Source: a virus
Reading direction: 5' to 3' (one strand)
DNA length: 20,913 nucleotides
IMG/VR virus record: IMGVR_UViG_3300031223_000923
Location: 1-20,913 of that record
Below, one piece after another: positions 856 through 20,913 of the stretch. Both the position numbers and the translations under genes were made by a program. Position 1 is the first letter of the stretch. Each line of letters starts with the position of its first letter. Below the pieces are notes generated by a model that was not told where the DNA came from, searched no databases, and saw nothing but the letters and a program-made list of their open reading frames with translations.

Positions 856-931
856 TTGTTTCTCGTTTCTTAATTGGATTTTACAGGTGTATTGATGTGT
901 ATTGGGTGTATTGGGTGTATTGGGTGTATTT
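843..931. repeat. Tandem GTGTATTG repeats at kfrA-like start (probable operator)
   Basis: The octamer GTGTATTG occurs at 843-850, 887-894, 897-904, 906-913 and 915-922, with a one-mismatch copy (GTGTATTT) at 924-931. The last five copies are spaced 10, 9, 9 and 9 bp. The copy at 843 lies inside the first codons of the kfrA-like gene and the others lie 30-80 bp upstream of its ATG. KfrA proteins are known to bind direct repeats upstream of their own genes, so an autoregulatory operator is the simplest reading. Iterons for the nearby initiator-like gene are an alternative. Confidence 0.6.
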
Positions 932-2777: not shown

Positions 2778-3006
2778 GGGGCCTAAGGCCGACATCCGCA
2801 CCAAATGTCGAACGGCAAAAAGGTGAGGAAAAGGCCCGCTGAATGTCATCTGAACACGTTTGCTGTCCTTTTTCCTCATTCCGTTTTGAAAACGCCGAAA
2901 TGCGAAAAAAACACCTCAATACGCGTCTTGGTATTTTGAAGTTTTGGGAAAGTGCCTGGTGGACCCACCTGCCGAGTACCCCAGAAGGAAACAACAGGAA
3001 AACCTC

Positions 3007-8475: not shown

Positions 8476-10614
8476 CTACCTCACCAGTCGAAGCGGCGAT
8501 TGCGCTGCACTACCTTCGGCACGATCAATACGCTTTCCAAAGGGACTTTTAACCATTGAAAGATCAAATGCGACCGCCTCGATAACTACATTTAGGGTCG
8601 CAACCGAGATACCGTTCTGAGAGTAAGAAATCTCCCCTTCATCCAAAGGGCGATGCCCAAGTATGCGGCGCTTAGCGTAGCCCGGAACCAATTTATCAAT
8701 GAGTGCGTGGTGAAAAGTCGTACGCAGTGCATGAAAATCAAGCCCGCGCCAGTAGACATTGTTTGCTTGCCGATACTTGGTAAAGTCTTTGGTGAAAAGT
8801 TCTGAGTAAGTTTGCTTGTTTTTGCCGCGTTGAAGGTATGGAAAGAGGCGGGGTTCCCCCTCTTTGAGACGGAGGGCGACCAGTTCCAACAAGCCGAGGC
8901 GAATAAGCTCAGGATGAACTGGAATGAGCCGGTGGCCAGATTCTGACTTGATGCTCTGTCCTTCTCCGTTTGTCAGCCGATAATAGTGTATTCCACCATC
9001 GGCTTCGAAATCTTTTGGTGAAAGCTGCAAAAGTTCTTCCTGCCGGGCTCCTCCTAAAAGTGCCATCAAAGGTGCCCAAAAAAGGGGATCGCCAACTCCA
9101 TCAGTCTGGCCTTGGAAAACGCAAGTGTTCAAGAGCTTATAGATCCGATCATCCCAAGGACGGCGATCACGTTTCTCTTCCTGTTTTCGCATAGCAGTCT
9201 CCGACCTTGCGCTGATCATGTGCTTTACAAAAGGGCTGGCAGCCACTTCACCCAGCTTTACCAACATTTTTCCTGGACGATTTAAGGCTCGAGTGTGTTT
9301 CACGATCGTTTCCACACGCAGTCGTGGGATGCGGGCGTTAAGTTTTGCTTGTTCTATTTTGGCAGGGGAGGCGCCGGCCATCTTTGCATTGTTAACGGCA
9401 ATCTCGATCTCGCGTGCTTCTTTTACGTCGGTTTCTAACACCAAACTGCGCAGATCTCGCGTTTCCGAACAACTTTTGCCATGCGTCTCTGGAAGACGCC
9501 TCATCAGCGCCTTCGCTTCTCTAACATCCTGATCAAGAATTTCAAAATACGGTCTGTTTCCTAACAGGCTAACCCAAATGCGCTTGCCTACAAGCAACCC
9601 GTTTTCACTTGATTGGGCCCATTTTTTTCCAGTCGCGGCGTCAGGCACCTCTTCGCTACCAAATTCATCAGTGTATCCGGATTTCTTCCTGGTGATGTAT
9701 TGGTCGAACGCATCTGCAAGCAAAAGCGGTTCAGTTTCGGATCGCTCTGATACGATAATGCGATCTGAACGCATTGGATCGTTCGCTGGTACGCCTAACT
9801 GCGGACTTGCAGGGAATTCTTGCACTGCCTTTGATGCGTTAACTGGTTGATCTGCGATCTCAGAAGCGGGCAGTTGCTCCACGGGGAGAGTGATAGGGAG
9901 CGACGATACGCCTGTTTCTGCCAAGCGAGAGGTGGTCGTTTCGCTCTCACGACACTCTTGATGTGTAGACGCAAAGCCTGCCGGTGAATATGCCGCTTTC
10001 TGAGAATTAGGGACTGGGGCTGTCCGTGGTAGATCCATGTTGGTTGCATGCCGAAAATAAACAGAAGGACCATCATAGTCGCCTCGATCGAGCCGCGCGC
10101 GTTCCTCGCTGATGTTGATAAGAACGCGGGTCGCCTCGACAGCGAGAGTATTCCAAGCTTCAATGCAGTCAGGAAGATCAACGCCTAATCGAGCGGCAAC
10201 GTAGGCAAGAGGCGCTCGCGCAACGTTCCAATTACGCAAGAAGATGGCTTCACGCAGCGTCTCTTGCAGTGCGACCTCACGCTTCGATGCCATTTCAGCT
10301 TGAACAAGGCTGCGAGGTCCAGAGGTCGCGCGACCTTGTTCGAATGCCGCAATTTCAAAGCGAACCAATTCGGTCAGTAGCGTCATCATCAAAACTGGAT
10401 CCATATCAGGACATCCCCTCGCATAATCTATGGCGAGGGAGCTCAACGCCGTAAGGCGCGCGGCTAATTCTCTCGCGTCAGAGGGGACGTCGGTTCGCAA
10501 AGAAAAAATAAGAATGCGGTTTGACCCGCAATTTTTTGGGCTTGGAAGACGGCGACGCCAGTAGAAATTGCTTGGACGTTTTTCCAAATGAGGGGTGCGA
10601 TTGTACCGTTTCAC
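8476..10614 (-). CDS. Large tyrosine integrase beside tRNA-Asn
   Basis: The 712-residue protein has a complete tyrosine recombinase C-terminus: Arg in GGARQEELLQL, Lys in SIKSESGHRLIPVH, HALRTTF (HxxR), LGHRPLDEG and the Tyr in EISYSQNG. Its N-terminus (HLEKRPSNFYWRRRLP) is the 'Y-x-RRR-x-P' region typical of DUF6538-type integrases. An unusually long linker with low-complexity stretches separates it from the core-binding domain. I place the start at GTG 10614, which has AGGAAG nine bases upstream. A longer frame to 10704 would begin inside a terminator stem. It reads away from the tRNA-Asn fragment only 137 bp upstream, the usual position of an island integrase next to its attachment site. 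It probably belongs to a different element from the one on its right. Confidence 0.85.
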   Translation of the reverse strand: MKRYNRTPHLEKRPSNFYWRRRLPSPKNCGSNRILIFSLRTDVPSDARELAARLTALSSLAIDYARGCPDMDPVLMMTLLTELVRFEIAAFEQGRATSGPRSLVQAEMASKREVALQETLREAIFLRNWNVARAPLAYVAARLGVDLPDCIEAWNTLAVEATRVLINISEERARLDRGDYDGPSVYFRHATNMDLPRTAPVPNSQKAAYSPAGFASTHQECRESETTTSRLAETGVSSLPITLPVEQLPASEIADQPVNASKAVQEFPASPQLGVPANDPMRSDRIIVSERSETEPLLLADAFDQYITRKKSGYTDEFGSEEVPDAATGKKWAQSSENGLLVGKRIWVSLLGNRPYFEILDQDVREAKALMRRLPETHGKSCSETRDLRSLVLETDVKEAREIEIAVNNAKMAGASPAKIEQAKLNARIPRLRVETIVKHTRALNRPGKMLVKLGEVAASPFVKHMISARSETAMRKQEEKRDRRPWDDRIYKLLNTCVFQGQTDGVGDPLFWAPLMALLGGARQEELLQLSPKDFEADGGIHYYRLTNGEGQSIKSESGHRLIPVHPELIRLGLLELVALRLKEGEPRLFPYLQRGKNKQTYSELFTKDFTKYRQANNVYWRGLDFHALRTTFHHALIDKLVPGYAKRRILGHRPLDEGEISYSQNGISVATLNVVIEAVAFDLSMVKSPFGKRIDRAEGSAAQSPLRLVR

Positions 10615-10699
10615 GCTGCGACTCTTCCTGTCTTCGGGGCGCGCAAATGCGCCAGTTGTGACGAGCGGAGTGCACCAGATGTGCCCAGAAACGAGAAAA

Positions 10700-10723
10700 G
10701 GCACCCGCAGGGGTGCCTTTTTT
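10700..10723. terminator. Bidirectional terminator downstream of tRNA-Asn sequence
   Basis: GGCACCC (10700-10706) and GGGTGCC (10711-10717) form a 7-bp stem with loop GCAG. Six T follow on the plus strand (10718-10723) and four on the minus strand (10699-10696). It lies about 30 bases beyond the tRNA 3' end, so it would end minus-strand tRNA-Asn transcripts when a complete gene sits here. Confidence 0.75.
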
Positions 10724-10750
10724 CTTTAAAACCATACACTTAGGAGTGTT

Positions 10751-10799
10751 TGGCTCCGACGGTAGGGATCGAACCTACGACCAATTGATTAACAGTCAA
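10751..10799 (-). other. Attachment-site core: 3' fragment of tRNA-Asn(GTT)
   Basis: On the minus strand this reads as tRNA positions 28-76: the 3' part of the anticodon stem-loop with anticodon GTT, variable loop, T arm with GGTTCGATCCC, the acceptor 3' strand ending CCGTCGGA, and GCCA. Identity breaks at position 27, and the sequence to the right has no D arm or 5' acceptor strand. It is therefore a 49-bp fragment, not a working gene. Such a fragment is the att copy left when an element integrates into a tRNA 3' end. The complete tRNA-Asn should lie at the other end of the element, beyond the window. Confidence 0.85.
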
Positions 10800-10901
10800 G
10801 TTTTATATCCAAACTGGCCCTAACTATGTAAAACTATCGCACTTGATATGCGCCATGTTTTGTTAGCTATTGCGTGTCATGTTAGCCTTTGTTACTAACT
10901 T

Positions 10902-10948
10902 GGGGTAACGGGCCTTAACCGGCTAATCCGTTACCCCAGTGTTACCCC
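10902..10948. repeat. GTTACCCC repeats upstream of integrase (probable arm sites)
   Basis: GTTACCCC occurs at 10930-10937 and 10941-10948, and its inverse GGGGTAAC at 10902-10909. The first two are extended to a 10-bp inverted repeat (GGGGTAACGG 10902-10911 and CCGTTACCCC 10928-10937). Related GTTAG/GTTAC words continue back to 10862. The cluster lies between the att core and the integrase start. That suits arm-type integrase binding sites or an autoregulatory operator. Confidence 0.6.
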
Positions 10949-10964
10949 AGAGGGAAAATTGACT

Positions 10965-12197
10965 ATGGCAAAGGCACTCACGACAAAGGCGATCGAGGTC
11001 GCGAAACCCAGCGACAATCGCCGCGAAATCCCCGATCCAGCATTGTCCGGGCTTTACCTTGTTATCCAGCCCAGCGGCGTGAAATCTTGGGCCTTGCGCT
11101 ACCGCTACGCTGGCAAGCATAAGAAGCTGACCCTTGGGCGCTGGCCGGTGATGGGGTTAATGGATGCGCGCGCCGCCGCGACCGATGCTATCGAAGTGGT
11201 GGAGCATGGGAACGATCCGAGCGTGGCCAAGAAAGCGACCAAGGCCGCGCGGATGGAAGCGCAGCTATCTGAGCGAGACAAGATCAGGACGCTGGCGGAG
11301 CAATTCGGCCAGCGCCACCTGTCCACCCTGAAATCAGGGGAGACTGTAAAACGCGAATTGCACAGGCATGTTGTGGCGGTCTGGGGTGAACGTGACATTC
11401 ACGACATTGCAAAGCGCGATGTGATCGACCTGCTGGACGGGATAGCCGACAGTGGGCGGGTTGTGACTGCAAACCGGGTTCGGGCGTATCTGAACAAGTT
11501 TCTAAGCTGGTGTGTTGAACGCGATATCATCGGCCAATCACCAGCAATGGGCGTTAAACCTGTTGCCAAGGAAAAGAGCCGCGACCGCGTTATGACCGAC
11601 GACGAAATCAAATGGTTCTGGCAGGCCTGCACCATCGAGGGCCAGCCATGGGGGCAGCTTGGCCACATGCTGTTGCTGACCGGCCAACGGCTTGGCGAGG
11701 TAGTGAATATGACCGACCGCGAAGTTAGCGGCGATCTGTGGCACCTGACCGCCGACAGGACAAAGAACGGGCGCGCCCATGATGTGCCGTTGTCAGACGC
11801 CGCACGGGACGTTCTGGGGGCCGTGGAGCGCGTCAAAGGCGATGCGGGCTATGTGTTCACCACGACCGGCGAAAGCGCGTTACAAGGCTACCACAAAGGC
11901 CGAAACCACATTGCAAAGCGCATGACAGAGATTGCGGGGCAGGAGATCCCGCACTGGACGTTTCACGATCTCCGGCGCACGGCGGCAACTGGCATGGCGC
12001 GGCTTGGCATTCCGGTTCGCGTTACAGAGGCAGTTCTAAATCATGTCAGTGGCACCGGCGGCGGGATTGTTGGCGTCTATCAGCGCCACGACTATGCCGA
12101 CGAAAAGCGGCAGGCGTTAGAAGCATGGGCGCACTTTGTTGGTGATTTAGTCGAAGGCACTGCGGGCAACGTGGTGCGTTTGGTGGAGGCGCGTTGA
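10965..12197 (+). CDS. int: P4-type tyrosine integrase of the satellite
   Basis: This 410-residue integrase has the N-terminal arm-binding domain of the P4/DUF4102 type (about residues 1-90, including GLYLVIQPSGVKSWALRYR and LTLGRWPVMGL), a SAM-like core-binding domain (about 105-185) and a full catalytic domain. Catalytic residues are Arg242 (TGQRLGEV), Lys267 (DRTKNGR), His334 and Arg337 (FHDLRRTA), His360 (VLNHV) and Tyr372 (GVYQRHDY). It would integrate the element at the 3' end of tRNA-Asn, whose fragment lies 166 bp upstream. ATG 10965 with AGGG ten bases before is preferred to the in-frame TTG at 10959. It reads into the element and overlaps the next gene by one base. Confidence 0.92.
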   Translation: MAKALTTKAIEVAKPSDNRREIPDPALSGLYLVIQPSGVKSWALRYRYAGKHKKLTLGRWPVMGLMDARAAATDAIEVVEHGNDPSVAKKATKAARMEAQLSERDKIRTLAEQFGQRHLSTLKSGETVKRELHRHVVAVWGERDIHDIAKRDVIDLLDGIADSGRVVTANRVRAYLNKFLSWCVERDIIGQSPAMGVKPVAKEKSRDRVMTDDEIKWFWQACTIEGQPWGQLGHMLLLTGQRLGEVVNMTDREVSGDLWHLTADRTKNGRAHDVPLSDAARDVLGAVERVKGDAGYVFTTTGESALQGYHKGRNHIAKRMTEIAGQEIPHWTFHDLRRTAATGMARLGIPVRVTEAVLNHVSGTGGGIVGVYQRHDYADEKRQALEAWAHFVGDLVEGTAGNVVRLVEAR

Positions 12198-12847
12198 TGG
12201 CAAAACGGATCAAAAAGGGCGTGGGTATGACAGAGCGTGTTGTCATTCAACGCGATGAGTCGGATTTTCTAAACAGCGAGAGCTTTGCAAGTGCATTTTT
12301 TGAAGCTCTAGAAGCAAATTGTATCGCCAAGAATGTTAGGGCCGAAAATGCAAAACGCGCCCGCAAGATACTTGCAGAGGCAGGTCCAGAGCAAGGCAAC
12401 ATAGAAGCGAGTCTCTGCCTTGGTGGATACAGTGAAGACAAAGCCGAAAGTTTAGTGGCAGAATGGCTGCGCACGTTTCATCACATTGAGAGTTTGAAAG
12501 TGAAAGCGGCAAGTGGTGACACCTTGGCCGTATCAGATCTTATTGATGAGGCGGAACACCTTGGCGTCATTCAAGAGCGTTTGTGGTGGCGGTGCGGTCT
12601 CGATTACTCGACCGGCGAAAAGCGTGAAACTCTGGCAATCAGTGGTCGCGAATATAAGCGACGATCTGACGAAGGTGCAGAAAAACGCCGGGGTGAAATT
12701 GCCCCTCATACAAGTGATGTGCCGTCTACAATGCGAAGGCTTGTTGAGGCTGGACACTCAATTTCAAATGCGGCTCGCATTGCCGCCAAAAATGGAATCG
12801 GCAAGAGCGAGAAAGCAAATCGTGCAATCTGGTATCGGCGTAAATAG
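12197..12847 (+). CDS. Unknown protein with C-terminal HTH-like segment
   Basis: The 216-residue protein is not recognised. It is helical and charged, and its last 45 residues (MRRLVEAGHSISNAARIAAKNGIG) resemble an HTH such as those of resolvase tails or terminase small subunits, so DNA binding is plausible. ATG 12197 overlaps the integrase stop (TGATG) and has GGAGG seven bases upstream, so it is co-translated with the integrase. Its base composition is AT-richer than the integrase, suggesting a separately acquired gene. Candidate roles are integration control or, speculatively, DNA recognition for packaging, since no small terminase is visible elsewhere. Confidence 0.6.
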   Translation: MAKRIKKGVGMTERVVIQRDESDFLNSESFASAFFEALEANCIAKNVRAENAKRARKILAEAGPEQGNIEASLCLGGYSEDKAESLVAEWLRTFHHIESLKVKAASGDTLAVSDLIDEAEHLGVIQERLWWRCGLDYSTGEKRETLAISGREYKRRSDEGAEKRRGEIAPHTSDVPSTMRRLVEAGHSISNAARIAAKNGIGKSEKANRAIWYRRK

Positions 12848-12852
12848 AAAGC

Positions 12853-12925
12853 TGTGACACACCCCTGAACTGTCACAAATCAGTCTGGATACTTGAGAAG
12901 CCTAACGCAATCAAACGCAAGGCTT
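12853..12925. promoter_or_regulatory. Inverted and direct repeats upstream of alpA
   Basis: TGTGACA (12853-12859) and TGTCACA (12871-12877) are perfect 7-bp inverted repeats with an 11-bp spacer. Further on, AAGCCT (12898-12903) pairs with AGGCTT (12920-12925), enclosing two AACGCAA copies ten bases apart (12904 and 12914). The AAGG ribosome binding site of alpA lies in the second structure. The 82-bp gap probably holds the promoter and operator of the alpA operon. Confidence 0.45.
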
Positions 12926-12929
12926 CACA

Positions 12930-13130
12930 ATGGAACAAAAACTAATTTCTGCGGCAGCGGTTCGCGATCTATGCGGCGGCGTCACCGATATGACAATCTG
13001 GCGTTGGCTACATCATCCGACTTTAGGCTTTCCAAAGCCCATTAAGATCGGGCGGCGCAACTATTGGCGCGAAACTGAATTGTCAAAGTGGCTGGAACGT
13101 CAGGCCGAAGAGTCGCGGGGGGTTATGTAA
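12930..13130 (+). CDS. alpA: AlpA-family regulator/excisionase
   Basis: A 66-residue protein with the AlpA/excisionase layout: LISAAAVRDLCGGVTDMTIWRWL (helix-turn-helix), FPKPIKIGRRNYWRETEL (wing with the family's 'FPkPi.ig.r..W' signature) and a short final helix. AlpA proteins act as transcriptional activators or recombination directionality factors, and in Gram-negative phage satellites AlpA is the usual activator of the replication and excision genes. ATG 12930 follows AAGG by seven bases. Its stop overlaps the next start (TAATG), so it leads a coupled operon through the helicase gene. Confidence 0.85.
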   Translation: MEQKLISAAAVRDLCGGVTDMTIWRWLHHPTLGFPKPIKIGRRNYWRETELSKWLERQAEESRGVM

Positions 13131-13576
13131 TGATCCCCAAAATAGAAACCCCCGGTGCGTCTGGTAACGCGACCGAGGGCGAATTTGAAACAGGGCAGTT
13201 TCTCACTTCACAATATCGCATCCGCAAGGAATGGGCAATCGCGGCGTGGTTCGCACTGGATCATTGCGACCGGCAGGACATACTGCATATCTGCGAAACG
13301 TTGCTTGCCGATCTTGTAACTGATGGGCCAACGCTGGGCGATCCGTTTGGCATGGTCGCTTCTGATGCGCTGTTTTGGGCTGAATGCGCCCCTGCGCATG
13401 AGCTTGCGGCTTATGGCTGCGCAGCACTCGAAAAGCTGCATGGCCGTTCGCTTGGTATCAATATCCGAAAGCGGCTGTTTGCGAAGCTCTGGAAGGCTTT
13501 TGACAAGCGCGATCGGCTGGCATTTCTGGCGCGTGTCGATGTTGAGGGCAAGTTTCTGAATCGGGGGGCAGTATGA
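13130..13576 (+). CDS. Unknown protein between alpA and helicase
   Basis: The 148-residue protein is not recognised. It is mostly helical with no signal peptide, and its segments are a hydrophilic N-terminus, EWAIAAWFALDHCDRQDILHIC, LFWAECAPAHELAAYGCAAL and the basic RKRLFAKLWKAFDKRDRLAFLARV. The position between AlpA and a RepA-like ATPase, with ATG-stop overlaps on both sides (13130 and 13573-13576), argues for a replication or regulatory accessory role. A G-run at 13117-13122 serves as ribosome binding site. Function is unknown. Confidence 0.65.
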   Translation: MIPKIETPGASGNATEGEFETGQFLTSQYRIRKEWAIAAWFALDHCDRQDILHICETLLADLVTDGPTLGDPFGMVASDALFWAECAPAHELAAYGCAALEKLHGRSLGINIRKRLFAKLWKAFDKRDRLAFLARVDVEGKFLNRGAV

Positions 13577-14724
13577 ATATGCACGATCCTTTTGCAGACT
13601 TGCCCCCGGATGATCGTTTCGCACCGATGGACAGTTATTCCCCCTCACAAAGCACATCTGCACCCTTCGTTTTTGTTGCCGTGGGTGATCTGGAATATAA
13701 AGAACCAGAATTCCTAATTGACGGGCTAATCGAGACGGACACTTTAGGCATGATCTTTGGTGATCCGGGATGCGGCAAGAGCTTTGTTGCTGTGGATATC
13801 GGCCTGAGCGTTGCCAGCGGCACTCCTTTTCACGATAGGCCGGTTAAGCAAGGATCTGTGTTTTTCATCGCTGGAGAGGGTCACAACGGGCTGGCGAGAC
13901 GCTTTGCAGCATGGGCGAAAGATAGGGGCGTGTCTTTGGCCGGGGTTCCGCTGTTCAAATCCGAGCGAGCGGCACATTTTCTTGACGCTGCGAGCGCAAA
14001 GGCTGTGTCAAAGTCTGTCGATGCTTTGGCTAAGTCGCACGGTGAACCAACGCTCATTATTGTCGATACCGTTGCGCGCAACTTTGGTGCGGGCGATGAA
14101 AACTCGACAAGCGATATGAGCAATTTCATCGCAGCAATCGACGATCTGAAAGCGCGCTATCCGGGCTGTGCCGTGCTGCTGGTGCATCATTCGGGCCATG
14201 GTGACAAACAGCGCGCGCGCGGTGCTATGGCATTAAAGGGCGCGTTGGATTGCGAGTTTCGAATTGAACCGGCGGAAGGCGTCGCAATGCAAATCGTCAA
14301 TACGAAGATGAAGGATGCAGAACCACCTGCGCCAATGGCTTTCGTCTTTCATCCTGTGGATCTTGTTGGCGGTGCAAAGAGTGTGGTTCTTAGGGCGACG
14401 GAAGCACCGGAGCGGCAGACCCGCGTTTCCCCGTCGCAAAAGCTGGGAGTTAAAACCTACACCACCGCAGCGACCAGCGGCGGCGTTTGGGATGATGGTG
14501 CGTTTCGTGGCGTCCATGTCGATCATTGGCGTGATGCTTTCTATGCCAAGCACACCGGCGATAATACAGATGCGAAGAAGAAAGCATTCCAGCGGGTTCG
14601 TTCTGAACTGGTTAACAGTGGTAAGATGAAGGTGGAAAGCGATGTTTACCTAATAACTGACGGGACTATTCAAACCGAAATCATGGTTGAGCGGGACAGA
14701 CGGGACATAGCGGGACATTCGTGA
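13573..14724 (+). CDS. RepA-like hexameric helicase ATPase (AAA_25)
   Basis: The 383-residue protein has the RecA-type core of RSF1010 RepA-like helicases: Walker A GDPGCGKS (63-70), FIAGEGHNG (98-106, contributing the catalytic Glu), Walker B LIIVDT (161-166), LVHHSGHG (203-210) and the arginine-containing loop RARGAMALKGALD (214-226). Such enzymes unwind DNA at the origin. The C-terminal 90 residues look like a separate winged-helix-type domain (FRRVRSELV equivalent near 340-350). It is the last gene of the alpA operon, and its 3' end runs into a dense repeat cluster that could be the replication origin. No primase accompanies it. Start ATG 13573, or ATG 13579 two codons on. Confidence 0.82.
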   Translation: MNMHDPFADLPPDDRFAPMDSYSPSQSTSAPFVFVAVGDLEYKEPEFLIDGLIETDTLGMIFGDPGCGKSFVAVDIGLSVASGTPFHDRPVKQGSVFFIAGEGHNGLARRFAAWAKDRGVSLAGVPLFKSERAAHFLDAASAKAVSKSVDALAKSHGEPTLIIVDTVARNFGAGDENSTSDMSNFIAAIDDLKARYPGCAVLLVHHSGHGDKQRARGAMALKGALDCEFRIEPAEGVAMQIVNTKMKDAEPPAPMAFVFHPVDLVGGAKSVVLRATEAPERQTRVSPSQKLGVKTYTTAATSGGVWDDGAFRGVHVDHWRDAFYAKHTGDNTDAKKKAFQRVRSELVNSGKMKVESDVYLITDGTIQTEIMVERDRRDIAGHS

Positions 14725-14843
14725 AATTGTCCCGACGCAGAAGCCGGATGAGACGGGACAAGCGGGACAAGCCCTTAAGGGCTGTCCCGTGTCCCGCCTG
14801 CTCTGACAGCCTGATGAGTGAATTATGCGGGACAAACGGGACA
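14692..14843. repeat. CGGGACA repeat cluster (candidate origin or packaging region)
   Basis: CGGGACA occurs seven times on the plus strand (14692, 14701, 14711, 14754, 14763, 14828, 14837) and three times inverted as TGTCCCG (14728, 14783, 14790). Neighbouring direct copies are 9-10 bp apart. Between 14763 and 14789 an inverted pair flanks the perfect 14-bp palindrome AGCCCTTAAGGGCT (14770-14783), making a long near-perfect hairpin with one bulged base. The cluster starts in the last codons of the helicase gene. It looks like an iteron-type origin for the helicase; packaging-site or operator roles are alternatives. Confidence 0.6.
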
Positions 14844-14851
14844 CAAAGCCC

Positions 14852-14884
14852 TTGAATAAATAGGTATCATACCGGACCTATATA
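14852..14884 (+). promoter_or_regulatory. Possible promoter/operator of the capsid operon
   Basis: TTGAAT (14852-14857) and CCTATA/TATATA (14877-14884) could be -35 and -10 elements, with longer than ideal spacing. Between them lies the perfect palindrome GGTATCATACC (14863-14873), a good size for a dimeric regulator. It sits 35-65 bp upstream of the first packaging gene. Confidence 0.35.
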
Positions 14885-14918
14885 TGGTAAGCAATGCTGA
14901 CCTATATTGGGAAATATG

Positions 14919-15461
14919 ATGCTGACGATCGAGCGCACACCGATAGCAACCGGGCCAACCGTAGAGGCGGCATATCTCAATGAGCATATGCGTCTCGATG
15001 ATGATCTGTCGGATGGCGTGGCGCTGTACGTTGATGCGGCATCTGCGGAGGTAGAGGGCTACTGCGCGCTGGCCTTGCTGGATCAGACAATCACCACCAC
15101 CACCGACAACCTACCGGATCAGCACCTTGCCTTGCCTATCGGGCCAGTGGCAGCGGGCGCGACGATCACCGTCGACATGCTGGAGATGGACGGCACCACC
15201 ACACCTGTTGAGGGCTATTGGCTGGAGTACGGGCGCTATCCCGTCCTGCACTTCACCAGCACACCCGGCGGGCGTCTGCGGATCACCTACACCGCAGGCT
15301 ATGGCGACACATCGGCGGACATTCCGGCGGATCTGCGCATGGCTGTCTGTGACCTAGCTGCACGGCTGTACGATTACCGCGCGAGTGAGAAGGCAGCGAC
15401 CATGCCAGCGGCCACGGCGCGGATCTGCGCGCGCTATCGTCGTGTGAAGGCGGGCGCGTAG
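14919..15461 (+). CDS. gp6-like head-tail connector (phiE125 gp8 family)
   Basis: The 180-residue product matches the gp6-like connector layout: an N-terminal 'yLn.hmRlddd.sD..l..yvdaA...vE.yc' helix pair, a middle beta region starting LALPIGPVAAGATITVDML, then LRITYTAGYGD and IPADLRMAVCDLAARLYDYR, the family's C-terminal helix. Such proteins form a ring between the portal and the tail. It opens the packaging operon and is followed one base later by the terminase. ATG 14919 has GGGA six bases upstream; ATG 14916 and TTG 14907 are in-frame alternatives. Confidence 0.8.
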   Translation: MLTIERTPIATGPTVEAAYLNEHMRLDDDLSDGVALYVDAASAEVEGYCALALLDQTITTTTDNLPDQHLALPIGPVAAGATITVDMLEMDGTTTPVEGYWLEYGRYPVLHFTSTPGGRLRITYTAGYGDTSADIPADLRMAVCDLAARLYDYRASEKAATMPAATARICARYRRVKAGA

Positions 15462-15462
15462 A

Positions 15463-17049
15463 ATGGTCCCAATGCCCCCGATTGTGAATAGGGCCCGGAC
15501 CGTTGATGGGACTAGCGATTGCGCGCGTTCTGATGATCTGGCCGACAAAACTTTAGACTTTATCCGCTCGCTTCGTATCCCCGAAGGGCCATTGCACGGG
15601 CAGCATTTCAGCCTTGCGCCATTTCAGGAGGAGTTCGTTCGGGGCTTTCTTGCGCCCGATGTAATGACGGCGATCCTCTCGATCGGGCGCGGTCAGGGCA
15701 AGAGCATGCTGTCGGCGGCGTTGTGTTTGGCGCACCTGATGGGCGTGAGTGATCCGCAACCACGGCGGCAAGTGATCGTCGCGGCCAGGGTAAAAGAGCA
15801 GGCACGGATTGCGTGGGAATATGTCCAGGCGCTTGTGCAGCTCTTGCCCGAAGAAGAACAGGAGCTGTTCACGTTCCGGCAGGCACCACGGCTAGAGATC
15901 AGCTATGAAGGCAACGGCGGCGGGATGATCCGCGCGGTAGCGGCTGACGCAAAGAACCTGCTAGGACTTTCGCCCACCCTTATCTGTGAAGATGAGTTCG
16001 GACACTGGCACCCTGACAAGGGCATGCAACTGCACGCGGCGCTGGAAACATCGGCAGGCAAGCGGCAGGCAAAGACAATCATAATCAGCACAAGTGCCAG
16101 CGACGACACGCACCCGCTGTCGCAGATCCTCGACACGCCACCGCCTCACAGTTTTATCATTGAATGTCGCGCACCTTTGGGCATGCCTGCTGATGATCTG
16201 GACGGATTGAAGGCGGCAAACCCCGGCTCTGAGCATGGCATCGGGCCTTCTCTGAAATGGCTACAGGAGCAAGCACGTGTTGCTATCCAACGCGGCGGAC
16301 AGGCTCTTACCGGGTTCCGGCTGTACTCCCTCAATCAACGTGTCTCTGATGTAGGCAAGGCACAACTGCTGACTGTAGACGAATGGCAGGCGTGCGAGGT
16401 CGGCGACGATGAATTGCCCCCGCGCGATGGCATGTGCATCCTTGGCGTGGATCTGGGCGGTTCCCGTTCAATGTCGGCGGCGGCGCTGTACTGGCCCAAC
16501 ACTGGCCGATTGGAGGTTCAAGGGGCGTTCCCTCAAAACCCCGGCTTGGCGGAACGTGGCGAGGCTGACGGCGTAAAAGATCGTTACCTACGCATGCACG
16601 AGCGCGGCGAGCTGACCACCACCGGGGAGCGCACGGTTCAAGTCGGGCCTTGGCTTCGTCAAGTCTGGGATGAGCTGGTAAAGGAGGCCGAGGTTACGGC
16701 GCTTATTTGTGATCGGTATCGCCAAGCCGAGCTATTAGACGCCTTGGCGGCGGCTGGTATTCGCGTCCCTGTTATCTTTCGCGGGCAGGGTTTCCGGGAT
16801 GGCGGGCAGGACGTGGAAGGTTTCCGCAAAGCTGTCTTTGACGGCGTAGTGCAAACCCGGCCTTCCCTGCTGATGAGATCGGCGGCGGCTGATGCGCTTG
16901 TGGTCATTGATGATGCGCAGAACGCGAAGCTCACAAAATTGAGAAGCCTTGGTAGAATTGACGCAGTAGCGGCTTCCATCCTTGCGGTAGCCGAAGGCCA
17001 GCGGCGTATCGCGGCACCGACAAGAAAGGCGCGTTTGGCATGGGCATGA
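15463..17049 (+). CDS. terL: Phage terminase large subunit
   Basis: The 528-residue protein has both TerL domains. In the ATPase, the Walker A-type motif is GRGQGKS (75-81) and Walker B TLICEDE (172-178), with a coupling-type motif at TIIISTSAS. In the RNase H-like nuclease, acidic residues Asp330 (LGVDLGG), Asp417 (LICDRY) and Asp483/484 (VVIDDAQNAKL) form the expected metal-binding set. It pumps DNA into the head through the portal and cuts it. Length and motifs suggest a complete, working gene. It starts two bases after the connector stop and overlaps the adaptor start by 10 bp. No small subunit is adjacent, although one normally precedes TerL. Confidence 0.92.
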   Translation: MVPMPPIVNRARTVDGTSDCARSDDLADKTLDFIRSLRIPEGPLHGQHFSLAPFQEEFVRGFLAPDVMTAILSIGRGQGKSMLSAALCLAHLMGVSDPQPRRQVIVAARVKEQARIAWEYVQALVQLLPEEEQELFTFRQAPRLEISYEGNGGGMIRAVAADAKNLLGLSPTLICEDEFGHWHPDKGMQLHAALETSAGKRQAKTIIISTSASDDTHPLSQILDTPPPHSFIIECRAPLGMPADDLDGLKAANPGSEHGIGPSLKWLQEQARVAIQRGGQALTGFRLYSLNQRVSDVGKAQLLTVDEWQACEVGDDELPPRDGMCILGVDLGGSRSMSAAALYWPNTGRLEVQGAFPQNPGLAERGEADGVKDRYLRMHERGELTTTGERTVQVGPWLRQVWDELVKEAEVTALICDRYRQAELLDALAAAGIRVPVIFRGQGFRDGGQDVEGFRKAVFDGVVQTRPSLLMRSAAADALVVIDDAQNAKLTKLRSLGRIDAVAASILAVAEGQRRIAAPTRKARLAWA

Positions 17050-17381
17050 GTGCAAGCAAACTCGACCGCCGTATCGTGATCACGCGGGCCGAAATGATAG
17101 ACGATGGTTACGGCAACGTGACGGGCGAATTTGAACCGATCGGCACCATCTGGGCAAACCGTTCCGACATTAAGGACGGCGAAAAGGTATTGGCGGGCGC
17201 TGTCACGTCTGACCTGCAAACCCGCTTCACCGTGCGCAGTTCTGCATTTTCGCGGGGCATAAACCCGACCGATCGTATCTGGCACGCTGGCCTAGAGTTC
17301 AACATCACGGGCGCGAAGGAAAGCGCAGACGGGCGGCTAAACTTTATCGAGCTGACCGCGACCGCGAGGAACAACGGATGA
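17040..17381 (+). CDS. Head-tail adaptor / head closure protein
   Basis: The 113-residue protein has the SPP1 gp16-type adaptor pattern: an N-terminal LDRRIVITRAE strand, DGYGNVTGEFEPIGTIWANRSDI, then ARFTVRSSAF-like strands and RIWHAGLEFNITGAKE, ending LIEL-type. These small beta-barrel proteins close the filled head and dock the tail. It overlaps terL by 10 bp and the HNH gene by 4 bp (ATGA), so it is in the same operon. A second ATG six bases on (17046) is an alternative start. In a satellite it would provide the interface for a helper tail. Confidence 0.8.
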   Translation: MGMSASKLDRRIVITRAEMIDDGYGNVTGEFEPIGTIWANRSDIKDGEKVLAGAVTSDLQTRFTVRSSAFSRGINPTDRIWHAGLEFNITGAKESADGRLNFIELTATARNNG

Positions 17382-17710
17382 AAGAGCATTTCCGTCATAG
17401 CAAGCGCGTCACCTCGACGAAGCGATGGCAGGCTGTTCGCCATGCCGTCCTAGAGCGCGATGAATGGGCCTGCGTGCAGTGCGGAGATCGGCGGCGGCTG
17501 GAGGTGGATCATATCCACCCGGTACGCACCCACCCGCAGCACAGTTTCGACCCGGCGCAATGCCAGACGCTATGCGCGTCCTGTCACACCAAAAAAACCA
17601 GAATTGAGTGCGGACACAAACCGACACCACCCGACCGCCAAGCGTGGCGGGATTCTATCAGCGCAATGATGCGCGAAACCACCGAGCATAAAGGAAAACA
17701 CATTGCTTGA
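17378..17710 (+). CDS. HNH endonuclease of the packaging module
   Basis: The 110-residue protein has the compact HNH fold: CVQCG (first Cys pair), LEVDHIHPV (DH metal/catalytic pair), then CQTLCASCHTKKT (second Cys pair and final His). HNH proteins next to terminase genes are needed for DNA cutting and packaging in HK97-type phages and in capsid-forming satellites. It is coupled to the adaptor by an ATGA overlap and its last 8 bp overlap the capsid gene. An unlinked homing nuclease is unlikely given the operon position and size. Confidence 0.88.
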   Translation: MKEHFRHSKRVTSTKRWQAVRHAVLERDEWACVQCGDRRRLEVDHIHPVRTHPQHSFDPAQCQTLCASCHTKKTRIECGHKPTPPDRQAWRDSISAMMRETTEHKGKHIA

Positions 17711-18938
17711 ATCATTGAAAATCACCCGCCGTCAATCCGAGATCCGCCAGAACCTTGCGGAGCTGGTAGGCAAACCGACACCCACCGAGGACGAAACCCG
17801 CAGCATGGATAAGCTCGATCAGGAATACCGCACAAACGAAACGCGGTTCCGTGCGGCGCTGGTATCCGAGGACGAACAACGCGACGAAGCCAAGGGCGAG
17901 CTGGAAACCCGCAGCGGCAAAGAATGGGCCGAAATGATGGGCAAATTCGAGCTGCGGCAAGTGGCGTTTGCGATCGACGAAGGCAAGGCACTGAGCGGGG
18001 CCACCGCCGAGATCGTGGAAGAAATGCGCAACGCGGGCGGCTATCAGGGCATCCCGGTTCCCTACGCTGCATTGGAAACCCGCGCGGGCGAAACGGTATC
18101 AACCGGGACACCATCCCCCGAAATGATCCGGCCCATTATCGACCGGATCTTTCCCGGCAGCGTGGCCGAGCGTCTGGGCGTCCAACGTATCAACATCGCG
18201 CAAGGTTCTGTGGCTTTCCCTGTCGCAACGGCTGGCGCTGTGTTCGGATGGCAGACAACCGAGCTTGGTGACGTTGGCGCTGCTGCTGCTTACGCCACCA
18301 GTGAGCGCAGTTTGGCACCGGATTACACGGGCGGCGCGCAAATGGTTATCAGCCGCAAGACGCTGAAACAATCTGGCGAAGGTTTGGAAGCTGCTATCCG
18401 CCGGGATCTGAACGCGGCGATCGGCACCGAGCTGGACCGCGTGGTTATCAACGGCAGCGGCGCGGCGGGCCAGCCTTTGGGGTTCATCCCCGGCGCTGTC
18501 ACCTATGGCATCGCTGTGGAGGACGTGAGCGCAGCGGCAACATGGGCGGCGTTCCGTGCCGAGATCGTGGCGTTTATGGAAGCCAACGCGATCACCAGTG
18601 CAAGCCAAGTCAATCTGGCCTTTGATCCTGCGATCTGGGCAGATCTGGATGATACGCTTATCAGCGGGACCGCCGTGAGCGAATGGGACCGCCTGACAAA
18701 GCACGTTGGCACCCCGGCGATCAGCAATGTGATCCCGACCGAAACGGCGATCATGACGGCCAACGTGCAAGGCATCGCGCCGGGTTACATGGGCCTGTAT
18801 GGCGGCGTGGATCTTATCCGCGACCCCTACACCAAGGCGGGATCTGGGCAGCTCGTTTTGACTGGCCTTGTCACTGCGGACTTTGTGGCACCGCGTGGCC
18901 TGCAAACCCGTATCCTGACCAACTTGGCGGCAGCATAA
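17703..18938 (+). CDS. HK97-family major capsid protein
   Basis: The 411-residue protein has the HK97 capsid arrangement: an N-terminal coiled-coil delta domain (about residues 1-100) that the protease removes, then the shell domain with SPEMIRPIIDRIFPGS, the VINGSGAAGQPLGFI signature of the family, and the C-terminal GVDLIRDPYTKAGSGQLVLTGLV. It forms the icosahedral shell. The start is TTG at 17703, with AAGGA seven bases upstream; it overlaps the HNH stop by 8 bp. The rare start codon on a highly expressed structural gene is odd. Its stop overlaps the protease start (TAATG). Confidence 0.9.
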   Translation: MLESLKITRRQSEIRQNLAELVGKPTPTEDETRSMDKLDQEYRTNETRFRAALVSEDEQRDEAKGELETRSGKEWAEMMGKFELRQVAFAIDEGKALSGATAEIVEEMRNAGGYQGIPVPYAALETRAGETVSTGTPSPEMIRPIIDRIFPGSVAERLGVQRINIAQGSVAFPVATAGAVFGWQTTELGDVGAAAAYATSERSLAPDYTGGAQMVISRKTLKQSGEGLEAAIRRDLNAAIGTELDRVVINGSGAAGQPLGFIPGAVTYGIAVEDVSAAATWAAFRAEIVAFMEANAITSASQVNLAFDPAIWADLDDTLISGTAVSEWDRLTKHVGTPAISNVIPTETAIMTANVQGIAPGYMGLYGGVDLIRDPYTKAGSGQLVLTGLVTADFVAPRGLQTRILTNLAAA

Positions 18939-19492
18939 TGCTTTGGGGCGGTAACAAAGGCACGCTGGAGATCAGGGCCGAGGGCGGTACAACCCGCCTT
19001 CGTGCCACGTTCCCCTATGGTGCAGAAACCGAGCTGGCACCGGGGCGGCTGGAAGTTATCGCCCCGCGCGCCTTTGCCGATCGTATCAATGGCGGCGGCG
19101 AAATTCACCTACTGGCAGGGCATAGCTATGACAAACCATTGGCAAGCCGATCAGCCGGCACTTTGCACCTGACCGACACCGACGAAGCGTTACAGATCGA
19201 GGCCACCCTCGACGATGGCACGAGCTGGGCGCGGGACTTTCTGGCGGCAAATGCGGCCGGGTTAATTCGCGGCCTATCCCCCGGCTTTCGCGTGGCACCG
19301 GATGGCGAGCGGATCGAGCGGCGCGGCGACGGTATGTTGCGCACCATTGGCAAGGCGGACTTGATGGAGATCAGCGCAGTGACGCGCGGGGCATATCCAG
19401 CGGCACAAATTGAGGCGCGGGCGTGGGGCGTCTGTACCAAGTTGGTACACAACGATGGCCTGCACCGCACCCTAAACCGATGGAGGGCATAA
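18938..19492 (+). CDS. HK97-family prohead protease
   Basis: The 184-residue protein fits the prohead serine protease family (U35): the catalytic His62 in LLAGHSYDKPLAS and Ser114 in RGLSPGF, with the family's 'G.l.G.S.gF' form. A Glu/Asp third partner is likely in ADLMEISAVTRGAYPAA near the C-terminus. It cleaves the capsid delta domain and itself during maturation. ATG 18938 overlaps the capsid stop (TAATG); a longer upstream frame inside the capsid gene is a shadow. It lies between capsid and portal, the reverse of the usual portal-protease-capsid order. Confidence 0.88.
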   Translation: MLWGGNKGTLEIRAEGGTTRLRATFPYGAETELAPGRLEVIAPRAFADRINGGGEIHLLAGHSYDKPLASRSAGTLHLTDTDEALQIEATLDDGTSWARDFLAANAAGLIRGLSPGFRVAPDGERIERRGDGMLRTIGKADLMEISAVTRGAYPAAQIEARAWGVCTKLVHNDGLHRTLNRWRA

Positions 19493-19493
19493 C

Positions 19494-20567
19494 ATGGGCC
19501 TGATGGATATTTTCCGGCGCTCTACCAACTTGGTAAAGCACGAAACCCGATCATCCGGCACGGGCTACACGGCGACAATCATGGCAGCGCGTGAAAGCTG
19601 GTTCTCTGGGCAATCGGGCATGGCGGAGCTAACAAGCACCGTGCAAAGCTGTGTAAGTCTCTGGGAGGGCGCATTGGCGGCGTCTGATGTATCCGGCACC
19701 GACATGCTGGACAGACGCACGATGGCGCTGGCGGGGCGTTCTCTGGCCTTGCGTGGCGAGTTCGTGGCGCTGATTACCGGGGACGGCATTGTCCCGGCGT
19801 CTGACTGGGATATTAGCACCCGCAACGGCATCCCGCGCGCATATCGCGTTAGCATCGCAGAGGCAGGCGGCGCGAGATCCGAAACGGCATTGGCGGGCGA
19901 GATCCTGCACTTTCGCATTGGTTCTGATGCTGTGACACCGTGGACCGGGCAGGCACCTTTGACACGTTCGGGGCTGTCGGCATCCTTGCTGCAAGAAGTC
20001 GAAACCGCCTTGCGTGACGTGTTCCGGGATGCGCCGATCGGTTCGCAGATTGTGCATCTGCCCGATAGTTCCGCCGAGGATATGGAGATGATGCGCGCGG
20101 CGTTCCGGGGTAAGCGCGGTTCAACCCTTGTGATCGAGGGCGTGGCGCAATCGACGGCGGCGGGCATGAATCCGCAGCTAGGGCAAAAGCCTGACCAACT
20201 GTCACCGGATCTGCAAAAGGCGATGCACATAGAGGCGCTGGCAGCGGCACAGGACGGCGTTGCGCTGGCCTTTGGTGTGTTGCCGTCAATGCTGACACGA
20301 TCGGCACAGGGCAACACGATCAGGGAAACAGGCAGACAACTTGCTGTGTGGACGCTGCAACCCATTGCGGATCTGATGGCCGAGGAAGCCACCGCCAAGC
20401 TGGGCGGCACCGTCTCGATCGACACCATGCGCAACCTGCAAGCGTTCGACGTGAGCGGACGGGCGCGGGCCATGAAAACGATCATCGAAGCGATGGCAGC
20501 GGCAAAGGCGGCGGGAGTTGATCCGGCGGCGGCGCTGCATCTGGTAGACTGGGGCAAAAATGACTAA
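19494..20567 (+). CDS. HK97-family phage portal protein (short)
   Basis: The 357-residue product has the features of HK97-type portals: an N-terminal MDIFRR, SCVSLWEGALAASDV (matching the family's 'v..cv..ia..va..p' helix), a beta core with ILHFRIG, SLLQEVETALRDVF, then a long helix with TIRETGRQLAVWTLQPIADLMAEEATAKLG, the family's C-terminal hallmark. It forms the vertex channel for DNA. It is about 60 residues shorter than typical HK97 portals, mainly in the N-terminal half, and this may be a satellite adaptation. GGAGG lies eight bases before ATG 19494. It is the last gene of the operon. Confidence 0.82.
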   Translation: MGLMDIFRRSTNLVKHETRSSGTGYTATIMAARESWFSGQSGMAELTSTVQSCVSLWEGALAASDVSGTDMLDRRTMALAGRSLALRGEFVALITGDGIVPASDWDISTRNGIPRAYRVSIAEAGGARSETALAGEILHFRIGSDAVTPWTGQAPLTRSGLSASLLQEVETALRDVFRDAPIGSQIVHLPDSSAEDMEMMRAAFRGKRGSTLVIEGVAQSTAAGMNPQLGQKPDQLSPDLQKAMHIEALAAAQDGVALAFGVLPSMLTRSAQGNTIRETGRQLAVWTLQPIADLMAEEATAKLGGTVSIDTMRNLQAFDVSGRARAMKTIIEAMAAAKAAGVDPAAALHLVDWGKND

Positions 20568-20577
20568 ACGAGTTAAA

Positions 20578-20913
20578 TCAGTTGAAGTCTTCAAGTGCGG
20601 CCTTTTTAGCCTGTGGCTTGGTGGAATATCCGTCCCCAAATTCAGGCGAGTCCGTCACACCGTCAGCAATATCTTCGGCGTCGAGGATTTCCGAGGTGCA
20701 ATAGTTCCAACCACCATCTTGCTTAAAGATTGTGATCCTGAATCCGTCAATTTCAGTTGTGTCGTTGCCTTTTTCGGATTTTTGCCATTCTACCTTTAAG
20801 GCGGCGGCTTCCTTTTCTGGTTTGGGCTTAGAAGTGGCATAGGATGCTACCTTCTGTACTTTTTTTATCGTTCGAGCACTTTTCTTGCCCACGATGAGGT
20901 CCAGCCATCCCAT
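20578..20913 (-). CDS. Small unknown protein, convergent with portal gene
   Basis: This 111-residue protein is not recognised. Its N-terminus is basic (GKKSARTIKKVQKVASYATSK). It has an amphipathic Lys/Glu-rich middle and a C-terminal domain with two likely strands (FRITIFKQDGGWNY) and an Asp/Glu-rich end. The ATG is at the very end of the window (20913-20911), so upstream signals are not visible. It faces the portal gene with a 10-bp gap, is clearly AT-richer than the packaging genes, and sits where satellites carry cargo, between the morphogenesis operon and the distal att. A regulatory, tail-hijack or anti-phage role is possible but unsupported. Confidence 0.55.
   Translation of the reverse strand: MGWLDLIVGKKSARTIKKVQKVASYATSKPKPEKEAAALKVEWQKSEKGNDTTEIDGFRITIFKQDGGWNYCTSEILDAEDIADGVTDSPEFGDGYSTKPQAKKAALEDFN

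Follow-up and report, generated by a model that had tools for sequence, protein, structure and literature searches.

The window, an IMG/VR virus record of 20,913 nucleotides, very probably carries a capsid-forming phage satellite that borrows the tails of a helper. It holds the larger part (about 10.2 kb) of an element of about 10.3–11.4 kb integrated at a tRNA-Asn gene, and the family to which this element belongs, present in many alphaproteobacteria, most likely spreads by means of the tails of other phages. An initial annotation had listed a gene set running from a tRNA fragment to a portal, and each of these features was found in its place (Table 1). It had also remarked on the lack of tail, lysis and CI/Cro genes; likewise, the stretch at 10751–20913 yielded no recognisable tail or lysis gene and no repressor. 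The record opens on a stop codon, and its last bases, at 20,913, are the start codon of an ORF on the minus strand. As the distal tRNA lies beyond the end of the record, the satellite idea was tested on relatives.

Table 1. Features of the element within the window, with their positions, strands and supporting matches.
Feature	Position	Strand	Match
Left att site: the tRNA-Asn(GTT) 3' half	10751..10799	-	49/49 bases match both L159 att copies
Tyrosine integrase, 412 aa	10959..12197	+	PF13356, PF00589
217 aa protein, its ORF overlapping the stop codon of the integrase gene	12194..12847	+	no Pfam, PHROG or NCBIfam match
AlpA-like HTH regulator/excisionase, 66 aa	12930..13130	+	phrog_66 E 2e-6
Conserved helical protein, 147 aa from second start (ORF listed from 13088)	13133..13576	+	
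RepA-like AAA_25 replication ATPase, 383 aa	13573..14724	+	PF13481 E 3e-36
Iteron cluster, 10 x CGGGACA, both orientations	14692..14843 (152 bp)	.	
Head-tail adaptor (connector)	14907..15461	+	TIGR02215 E 2e-21, phrog_442 E 1e-26
Terminase large subunit (TerL)	15463..17049	+	phrog_9 E 6e-70
Head closure (stopper) protein, presumably tail-facing	17040..17381	+	PF05521 E 9e-19
HNH endonuclease, packaging module	17378..17710	+	PF01844 E 9e-8, phrog_144 E 5e-18
HK97-type major capsid protein, N-terminal helical part	17703..18938	+	PF05065 E 3e-12, TIGR01554
S78 prohead protease	18938..19492	+	PF04586 E 2e-21
Portal protein	19494..20567	+	PF04860 E 3e-15
ORF, 111 aa, runs to record end	20578..20913	-	no Pfam or PHROG match

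Integrase and att sites, which belong to the definition of cf-PICIs (capsid-forming PICIs), were represented by the integrase gene and by a left att corresponding to the paired att of L159, while the right att of the window lies beyond the record. One of the two L159 copies sits in an intact tRNA-Asn(GTT), and the window att showed 1 mismatch in 51 bases against L152, L153, L154 and L088. The integrase was 88–90% identical to those of the same four loci and of L127. Judging from its position, the 217 aa protein probably belongs to the integration module; ORFs of about 190–265 aa come after the integrase gene in many related islands.

The AlpA-like regulator, a weak match in Pfam (PF12728, E 4e-4, under the Pfam cut-off), was 94% identical in L127 and the RepA-like ATPase 92%. 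The cf-PICIs carry alpA and Pri-Rep; matches of the Rep-like protein of the window to primase-helicase families span the helicase part alone. The 147 aa protein falls in a cluster from 19 elements, the window included, and a fold search with a relative's model of this protein family gave no match. The CGGGACA motif occurred 12 times in the window, 10 of them in the cluster, against 2.6 expected window-wide, and 0 of 100 shuffles reached 12. The first three copies of the cluster still fall inside the rep gene, at its 3' end. The region has a folding z of -3.95, and its position makes the cluster the likely replication origin.

Of the further features that characterise cf-PICIs, capsid, protease, portal, connector/adaptor, TerL and HNH were found. 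The family TerL profile matched the 6z6d terminase (E 2e-48), and the weak capsid model (mean pLDDT 63.5), with helices in residues 2–110, fell short of what a fold search needs. No small terminase (TerS) was recognised among the scanned window proteins with Pfam, PHROG or NCBIfam; one weak HNH-domain match pointed to a PHROG named small terminase. The 147 aa protein, considered in this connection, had no fold match, and a TerS may be present in a form that these families miss. The minus-strand ORF after the portal gene is possibly a cargo gene.

The relatives showed how such elements are bounded. A related TerL was present in 74 genome loci. In 34 of them the block is flanked on one side by a complete tRNA gene and on the other by a duplicate of that gene's 3' end, the two lying 9.3–11.4 kb apart (mean 10,250, sd 428); 11 tRNA isotypes serve as sites. 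A tRNA repeat of at least 15 bp was present in 36 loci, 34 of which were used; L065, which spans 4.3 kb and has a truncated TerL, L057, which spans 10.9 kb and has its repeat within the tRNA, and L020, with a repeat of 13 bp, were left out. By tblastn, integrase, TerL, HNH, capsid and portal were detected in 34/34 bounded loci and the protease in 33, that of the remaining locus, L063, being assigned by cluster. A minus-strand tRNA to the right of TerL was absent in 29 of the 74 loci, where the contig or stretch often ends; L030, L034, L047, L068 and L075 are full-length loci without it.

The compact block at tRNA-Asn that the initial annotation had suggested seeking was recovered in five relatives (L088, L156, L159, L026 and L017), in which the complete tRNA lies 0.3–1.3 kb beyond the portal gene (1.2 kb in L159). 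The intervening ORFs were family-scanned in L088, L026 and L017 and listed in L156 and L159. Tail or lysis genes in this interval would have told against a satellite, and none of the 15 Pfam families that 144 ORFs to the right of the portal matched in all was of this kind; a PHROG with the name tail fiber was matched by at least one of these ORFs, among the 25 of 42 PHROG families listed. The right-hand scans took 144 of 182 ORFs, excluding TerL frames and small ORFs, and the left-hand family scans took 124 ORFs, including two that were added manually. Fourteen PADLOC families also matched right-hand ORFs (e.g. Control_protein, capH, RmrA, mad1 and HTH_VI); we take these for regulator-type matches rather than defence genes.

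Values of dN/dS were 0.05–0.28 across all 25 gene comparisons, some with rough dS values above 1, and at this level the compared genes are under purifying selection. That selection, together with the recurrence of a block of near-uniform size in the 34 bounded loci, speaks against an ordinary prophage remnant from which the tail and lysis genes were deleted. The head genes are of the ordinary HK97 kind and a few members are decaying, with TerL split in L079 and stop codons in some other TerL genes, as a remnant would predict. Searches of 50,697 phage records, at the sensitivity applied, found no intact phage with these genes, and we consider this origin highly improbable. Equally improbable is a minimal virus or vesicle-like particle that is self-sufficient and does without a tail. 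The lack of recognised tail genes and the tight genome size would suit such a particle, but the adaptor and stopper, to our knowledge found solely as head-tail joining parts, are retained under selection (dN/dS 0.10–0.28), and no lysis gene was recognised.

The capsid-forming satellite reading was further examined by the distance of the element from phages and plasmids. A complete phage with the same head genes, the other finding that would have spoken for a prophage, did not emerge from the 50,697 records: the best-ranked phage TerL was 28% identical, capsid matches reached 27–32% over part of the capsid length, and the portal had no match. Near-DNA searches of phages and plasmids with the element returned nothing. 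In plasmids, TerL matched at 29% identity across 90% of its length and at 33% across 35%; the exception was one Pseudorhodobacter plasmid, compared by two genes, with TerL at 53% and capsid at 56%. The head proteins are thus distant from those of phages except for the stopper and, to a lesser degree, the HNH protein. The window stopper, whose family (PF05521) we take to be tail-facing, was 48.5% identical to that of Paracoccus phage Pthi1 and 42% to that of Shpa, and all 30 family stoppers with a profile score above 100 matched the Pthi1 stopper at 35–49%. Shpa-like phage genes, including a similar stopper, were also present in two satellite-carrying host genomes (L108 and L109). Among the head proteins the stopper comes closest to phages that share these hosts, and it appears to be the best clue to the helper, with phages like Pthi1 or Shpa as candidates; its likeness to phages could also reflect old ancestry and not a tail partner. 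Both phages differ from the element in being complete, at 38–40 kb, with the order HNH-TerS-TerL-portal-protease-capsid-connector-stopper-tail. The Pthi1 HNH is 38% identical to that of the element, and its other head proteins except the stopper are barely recognisable.

Two mutually exclusive adaptor types occur in the family, each paired with its own stopper type where a stopper was found, and at least three exchanges between them were placed on a TerL tree of 71 rows, which omits TerL pieces shorter than 1,300 bases and the majority of viral contigs. Type B, represented by the cluster 21 protein, counts as a candidate adaptor only, the profile comparison with type A giving a probability of 7% and E 0.005. 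A more novel reading, less likely than not, is that the family forms an independently evolved alphaproteobacterial satellite lineage, not derived from published cf-PICIs, in which the head was long kept and the neck repeatedly swapped to suit the tails of different helpers, possibly including those of gene transfer agents (GTAs).

A GTA is a head-tail cluster without an integrase of its own; the element carries its own integrase and att repeats, with no tail genes recognised, and was rejected as a GTA. That the satellite docks on the tails of its host's own GTA, and not on those of a phage, is very unlikely. The family adaptor profile does match the RcGTA adaptor Rcc01688 (E 3e-15), although few adaptor structures have been solved; an adaptor match lies 5.6–5.9 kb from a GTA_TIM gene in 9/9 hosts tested, and GTA_TIM is present in 33 of 38 hosts. 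GTAs are common in these bacteria, however, so their co-occurrence with the satellite says little. Moreover, the stopper resembles those of siphophages more than that of GTAs (E 0.014; 29% in G009), and the host of L037 (G012), with a type A neck, had no GTA_TIM match.

The initial annotation had proposed a "roseobacter-type cf-PICI". The kind was right, whereas membership of the published family stays unproven, as no TerS was recognised and size and order differ. The order adaptor-TerL-stopper-HNH-capsid-protease-portal, with the adaptor before TerL and capsid-protease-portal last, departs from that generally known for cf-PICIs. True membership, by shared ancestry of the head module in other hosts, is a finer question within the satellite reading and seems rather doubtful to us. 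Extracts of PMC10690885, PMC10448857 and PMC11389934 describe cf-PICI gene features, and those of the first two support membership by gene kind: cf-PICIs such as EcCIEDL933 are likewise integrated and carry AlpA, Rep, major capsid protein, protease, portal, connectors, TerL and HNH, with no tail genes; the counterparts of AlpA and Rep in the element are an AlpA-like HTH protein and a Rep-like ATPase. The missing TerS, the order and the size count against it, the element measuring about 10.3 kb where the part of PMC10803314 consulted gives a cf-PICI average of 14 kb. The two adaptor types also set the family apart from cf-PICI descriptions, and its alphaproteobacterial hosts are not among the main cf-PICI hosts named in that part of PMC10803314. 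The cf-PISP satellite-plasmids of Vibrio, as outlined in extracts of PMC13230959, share the tail-less capsid-forming gene set, but the present family is integrated at tRNA genes, shows no parA and spans about 10 kb against 15.8 kb. According to extracts of PMC10690885, the Mulch/Flayer satellites of Streptomyces also have their own small heads, and MulchRoom bears helper-like tails; these differ from the element in hosts, gene set, virulent helpers and direct terminal repeats. A literature search on Rhodobacteraceae and Paracoccus phage satellites found nothing relevant, which does not make the family unpublished.

From the gene content, a cycle can be proposed. The integrase would insert and excise the element at the 49-base 3' end of the tRNA; the paired att sites are seen in relatives. 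By analogy with Gram-negative PICIs, the AlpA-like protein may turn the element on under an active helper phage, and the RepA-like ATPase would then drive replication of the element, beginning at the iteron cluster located where the rep gene ends. The capsid, protease and portal would form a small head, into which TerL and HNH would package one genome. The adaptor and stopper would seal this head, the stopper docking a helper-phage tail, and the lysis genes of the helper would free the hybrid particle.

On this reading, tail-stealing satellites are placed in a major marine and soil bacterial group. The family offers a natural experiment on how heads and tails meet, in that heads stay and necks change, and which tail a satellite can borrow therefore becomes directly testable. 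The neck of a satellite may predict its helper, and 10 kb "incomplete prophages" in such genomes may be complete satellites.

The tRNA-Asn att site is shared with other islands. L199–L202, L207 and L208, which are classical PICI/SaPI-like islands, use it; L199–L202 have the integrase of the element (72–87%) and an AlpA-like gene, all except L200 have a capsid gene of another lineage, and no match to the family TerL or portal was found in the six. A strict empty site with both flanks joined was sought in the genus of L088, where matches covered only the tRNA and right flank. The tRNA-Asn region was present in 81 of 84 genomes of this genus, and by row count 13 of them besides that of L088 had a second tRNA fragment 8.8–21.4 kb away on the same contig. 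A follow-up of 15 genomes found the family TerL anywhere in 5 and at the tRNA-Asn site in 2 (G034 and G1183), so most islands there are other elements. In the host family, TerL was detected in 36 of 394 sampled genomes, counting the carrier used as centre, and carriers include Paracoccus sediminis, P. lichenicola, Aliihoeflea, Thioclava and Roseovarius.

The window is a single IMG/VR virus record comprising 20,913 bases in total, and its first base lies on the stop codon and its last base on the start codon of two different minus-strand genes, as would a provirus excised at gene borders. From position 10,751 onwards, the gene order was the 3′ half of a tRNA-Asn gene (minus strand), an integrase, a 217 aa protein, an AlpA-like helix-turn-helix (HTH) protein, a 147 aa conserved protein, a RepA-like ATPase, an iteron cluster, an adaptor, the large terminase (TerL), a stopper, an HNH protein, the capsid, the protease and the portal, with a minus-strand ORF of no recognised family at the end. 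All the components listed in the initial annotation, from the tRNA fragment, integrase and AlpA through the RepA-like and repeat region to the head genes, were present. The window contained no recognisable gene for a small terminase, a tail, lysis or a repressor.

A search with TerL recovered 13 viral contigs and 74 genome loci. The genome loci were mostly from Rhodobacteraceae, and the remainder were other alphaproteobacteria by record title (Aliihoeflea, Chelativorans, Hoeflea, Nitratireductor, Hyphomonas, Reyranella, Methylocystis and Algimonas, among others) or carried a phylum-level name only. At a threshold of E 1e-80 or better, and with the P. lichenicola carrier at the centre of the sampling counted in each set, TerL was found in 36/394 genomes from the GTDB family to which P. 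lichenicola belongs, 2/385 of its class and 5/398 of its phylum. Several genomes (P. lichenicola, Mameliella sp., G132, G017 and G019) held two copies. The head-gene order was constant across the relatives in loci of sufficient length. Given that the tRNA fragment of the window is on the minus strand, a minus-strand tRNA was expected to the right of TerL, and a minus-strand tRNA or tmRNA was located there in 45 of the 74 genome loci. Many of the other loci end at contig borders and some do not; L018 and L019 carry a plus-strand tRNA-Cys instead. The 3′ part of the tRNA (15–56 exact bases) was repeated to the left of the block in 34 loci, which occupied tRNAs for Asn, Cys, Ser, Arg, Phe, Thr, Tyr, Glu, Lys, Met and Leu. 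All 34 bounded elements had the integrase, TerL, HNH, capsid and portal; the protease was present in 33 and, by cluster, in the last. The repeat-to-repeat size was 9,317–11,365 bases (mean 10,250, sd 428), a narrow range of the kind that a fixed small head would be expected to impose.

The att segment of the window was identical to both att copies of the relative L159 and differed by one base from those of L088, L152, L153 and L154. The initial annotation had proposed looking for tail or lysis genes between 20913 and the distal tRNA-Asn; in the relatives, an intact tRNA-Asn followed the portal at ∼1.2 kb (L159, L156, L088), 1.1 kb (L017) or 0.3 kb (L026). The ORFs in this gap were family-scanned in L088, L026 and L017 and listed as ORFs only in L156 and L159, where a tail module would not fit into 1.2 kb. 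Based on these distances, the right end of the window's element should lie between 20.9 kb, the end of the record, and ∼22.1 kb.

The family scan to the right of the portal covered 144 of 182 ORFs from the 34 bounded elements. None of the 15 Pfam families matched was a tail or lysis family; they represented integrase parts, HTH regulators, small cargo-type domains and a stray portal match. The PHROG scan of the same ORFs matched 42 families, and the 25 listed comprised integrases, regulators, HNH, unknowns, a partition ATPase and one match named tail fiber, in a single ORF. For 124 left-hand ORFs, the 25 of 94 families listed were adaptors, primases, helicases, integrases, regulators and unknowns.

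An element lacking recognised tail genes could also be a prophage remnant. The dN/dS values were 0.05–0.28 in all 25 gene comparisons of the window with the related contigs L126, L127 and L128, although some dS values, being above 1, are approximate, and the matched frame of the L128 TerL has one stop. Homologous full prophages, which the initial annotation had named as a refuting finding, had no counterpart among 50,697 phage records at the sensitivity of the searches: the top-ranked phage TerL was 28% identical (among the best 20 of 86 matching records), all 12 capsid matches reached 27–32% over part of the length, and the portal had no match. A remnant is therefore very unlikely. Plasmid TerL matches were 29% over 90% of the length and 33% over 35%, and one Pseudorhodobacter plasmid (TerL 53%, capsid 56%) is presumably a further family member.

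The stopper is the exception among the head proteins of the window, which are otherwise far from phages. It shared 48.5% identity with the Pthi1 head-tail adaptor and 42% with that of Shpa, both complete Paracoccus phages with canonical gene order. Against a tiny set of 12 Pthi1 proteins, to which the E-values apply, the stopper scored E 3e-27, HNH 7e-12, the capsid 4e-4 and the portal 0.002, while TerL was not significant. All 30 family stoppers with a profile score >100 (near-copies included) matched the Pthi1 stopper at 35–49%, and two satellite-carrying host genomes (L108, L109) also contained Shpa-like phage genes, including a similar stopper. The family adaptor, in turn, is a relative of the gene transfer agent (GTA) adaptor Rcc01688 (profile E 3e-15), and an adaptor match lay 5.6–5.9 kb from a GTA_TIM gene in 9/9 hosts, as would suit an element docking on GTA tails. 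We regard this as a minor alternative to phage tails, given that phages are indicated by the stopper and that GTA_TIM had no match in one host of a type A member.

Two neck types were distinguished: type A, with the adaptor before TerL, and type B, with a candidate adaptor (cluster 21) between protease and portal. Among 71 TerL rows, 46 were type A, 21 candidate type B, four neither and none both, and the adaptor type required at least three changes on the TerL tree. Where found, the stopper type matched the adaptor type (30 A with A, 12 B with B, none mixed); 25 type A and 11 type B loci were without a stopper match and 10 loci without an adaptor match. Integrase position required eight changes on the tree, unclear rows excluded. 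The window combines a type A neck with an integrase-AlpA-Rep module resembling that of L026 and L088, both type B. We infer that modules are exchanged to suit helpers.

The closest syntenic twin of the window, the 10,455-base contig L127, shared 90% identity in the integrase, 94% in AlpA, 92% in RepA, 77% in the adaptor, 81% in the stopper, 94% in the capsid and 91% in the portal, but only 52% in TerL. L126 was 98% identical in the capsid, 97% in HNH, 95% in the portal and 52% in TerL; its portal is followed by small ORFs, an integrase (family profile E 2e-95) and a minus-strand tRNA-Arg. Across L126, L127 and L128, a TerL at ∼52% adjoined an adaptor and stopper at 71–87% and a capsid at 89–98%. 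TerL has thus been replaced within an otherwise close head module.

Gene content, size, selection and mosaicism are observed, as are the att repeats of the relatives; beyond these, a life cycle can be proposed. The AlpA-like protein would be the switch, an activator role of AlpA having been described for a Gram-negative PICI (PMC6092414), and the iteron cluster at the end of rep the probable origin. TerL and HNH would package the element DNA, a small head would form, the stopper would dock the tail, and release would occur via helper lysis. The same strategy is described for capsid-forming PICIs (PMC10690885, PMC10448857, PMC11389934, PMC10803314); compared by description, the present family differs in gene order and size and in having no recognised small terminase. 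The satellite reading is further supported by a block of head genes in Chelativorans intermedius (G006), where HNH, TerL, capsid, protease, portal, stopper and an integrase (identified by family profile) stand in a row directly before the host GTA cluster. Compared with Pthi1 and Shpa, this block held no similar tail gene; its TerL, capsid and protease were 27–37% and its stopper 40% identical to those of the window. It looks like a second, distant lineage of tail-less head-makers.

Coordinates of features in the window and in related loci
Sequence	Positions	Strand	Feature
Window	886-930		nine-base tandem repeat
Window	2944-6179		two large ORFs
Window	8476-10704	-	integrase-like protein
Window	10,751-10,799		att segment
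Window	15463-17049		TerL
L211 (G006)	10482-19304		head-gene and integrase block
L199	5009-6178		HK97 capsid, lone-capsid island
L201	1500-2900		HK97 capsid, lone-capsid island
L202	6227-7471		HK97 capsid, lone-capsid island
L207	6020-7384		HK97 capsid, lone-capsid island
L208	1498-2892		HK97 capsid, lone-capsid island

Of ten islands (9–11 kb) at the same tRNA-Asn in the genus that includes Roseovarius sp. A-2, five carried an HK97 capsid of another lineage. These capsids were 34–40% identical to the L202 copy (PF05065, E 3e-78), and the TerL and portal of the satellite family had no match in these islands. All five share the att site, and L199–L202 also share the integrase, with the family; the tRNA-Asn islands that were scanned include small terminases and primases. 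The lone-capsid islands look like classical PICI/SaPI-type satellites. Two plasmids are possible satellite-plasmids in alphaproteobacteria: a 16.9 kb plasmid of Roseomonas mucosa (L185, CP099479.1), with annotated head and packaging genes and no tail gene listed, and a 17.5 kb plasmid of Paracoccus marcusii (L186, NZ_CP157016.1), with annotated head and packaging genes, HK97 gp10 and DUF3168 and no tape measure listed.

To the left of the satellite, the window may contain another island. A 742 aa integrase-like protein (DUF6538 match under the cut-off) is encoded right up to the tRNA-Asn fragment, and L152 and L153 have 31% similar stretches next to their att site. Further left, two successive ORFs of 610 and 468 aa had no Pfam or PHROG match, and the C-terminus of the former was judged by eye to be tyrosine-recombinase-like. 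A tandem repeat of the unit GGTGTATTG (4.9 copies) lies where a KfrA_N gene begins.
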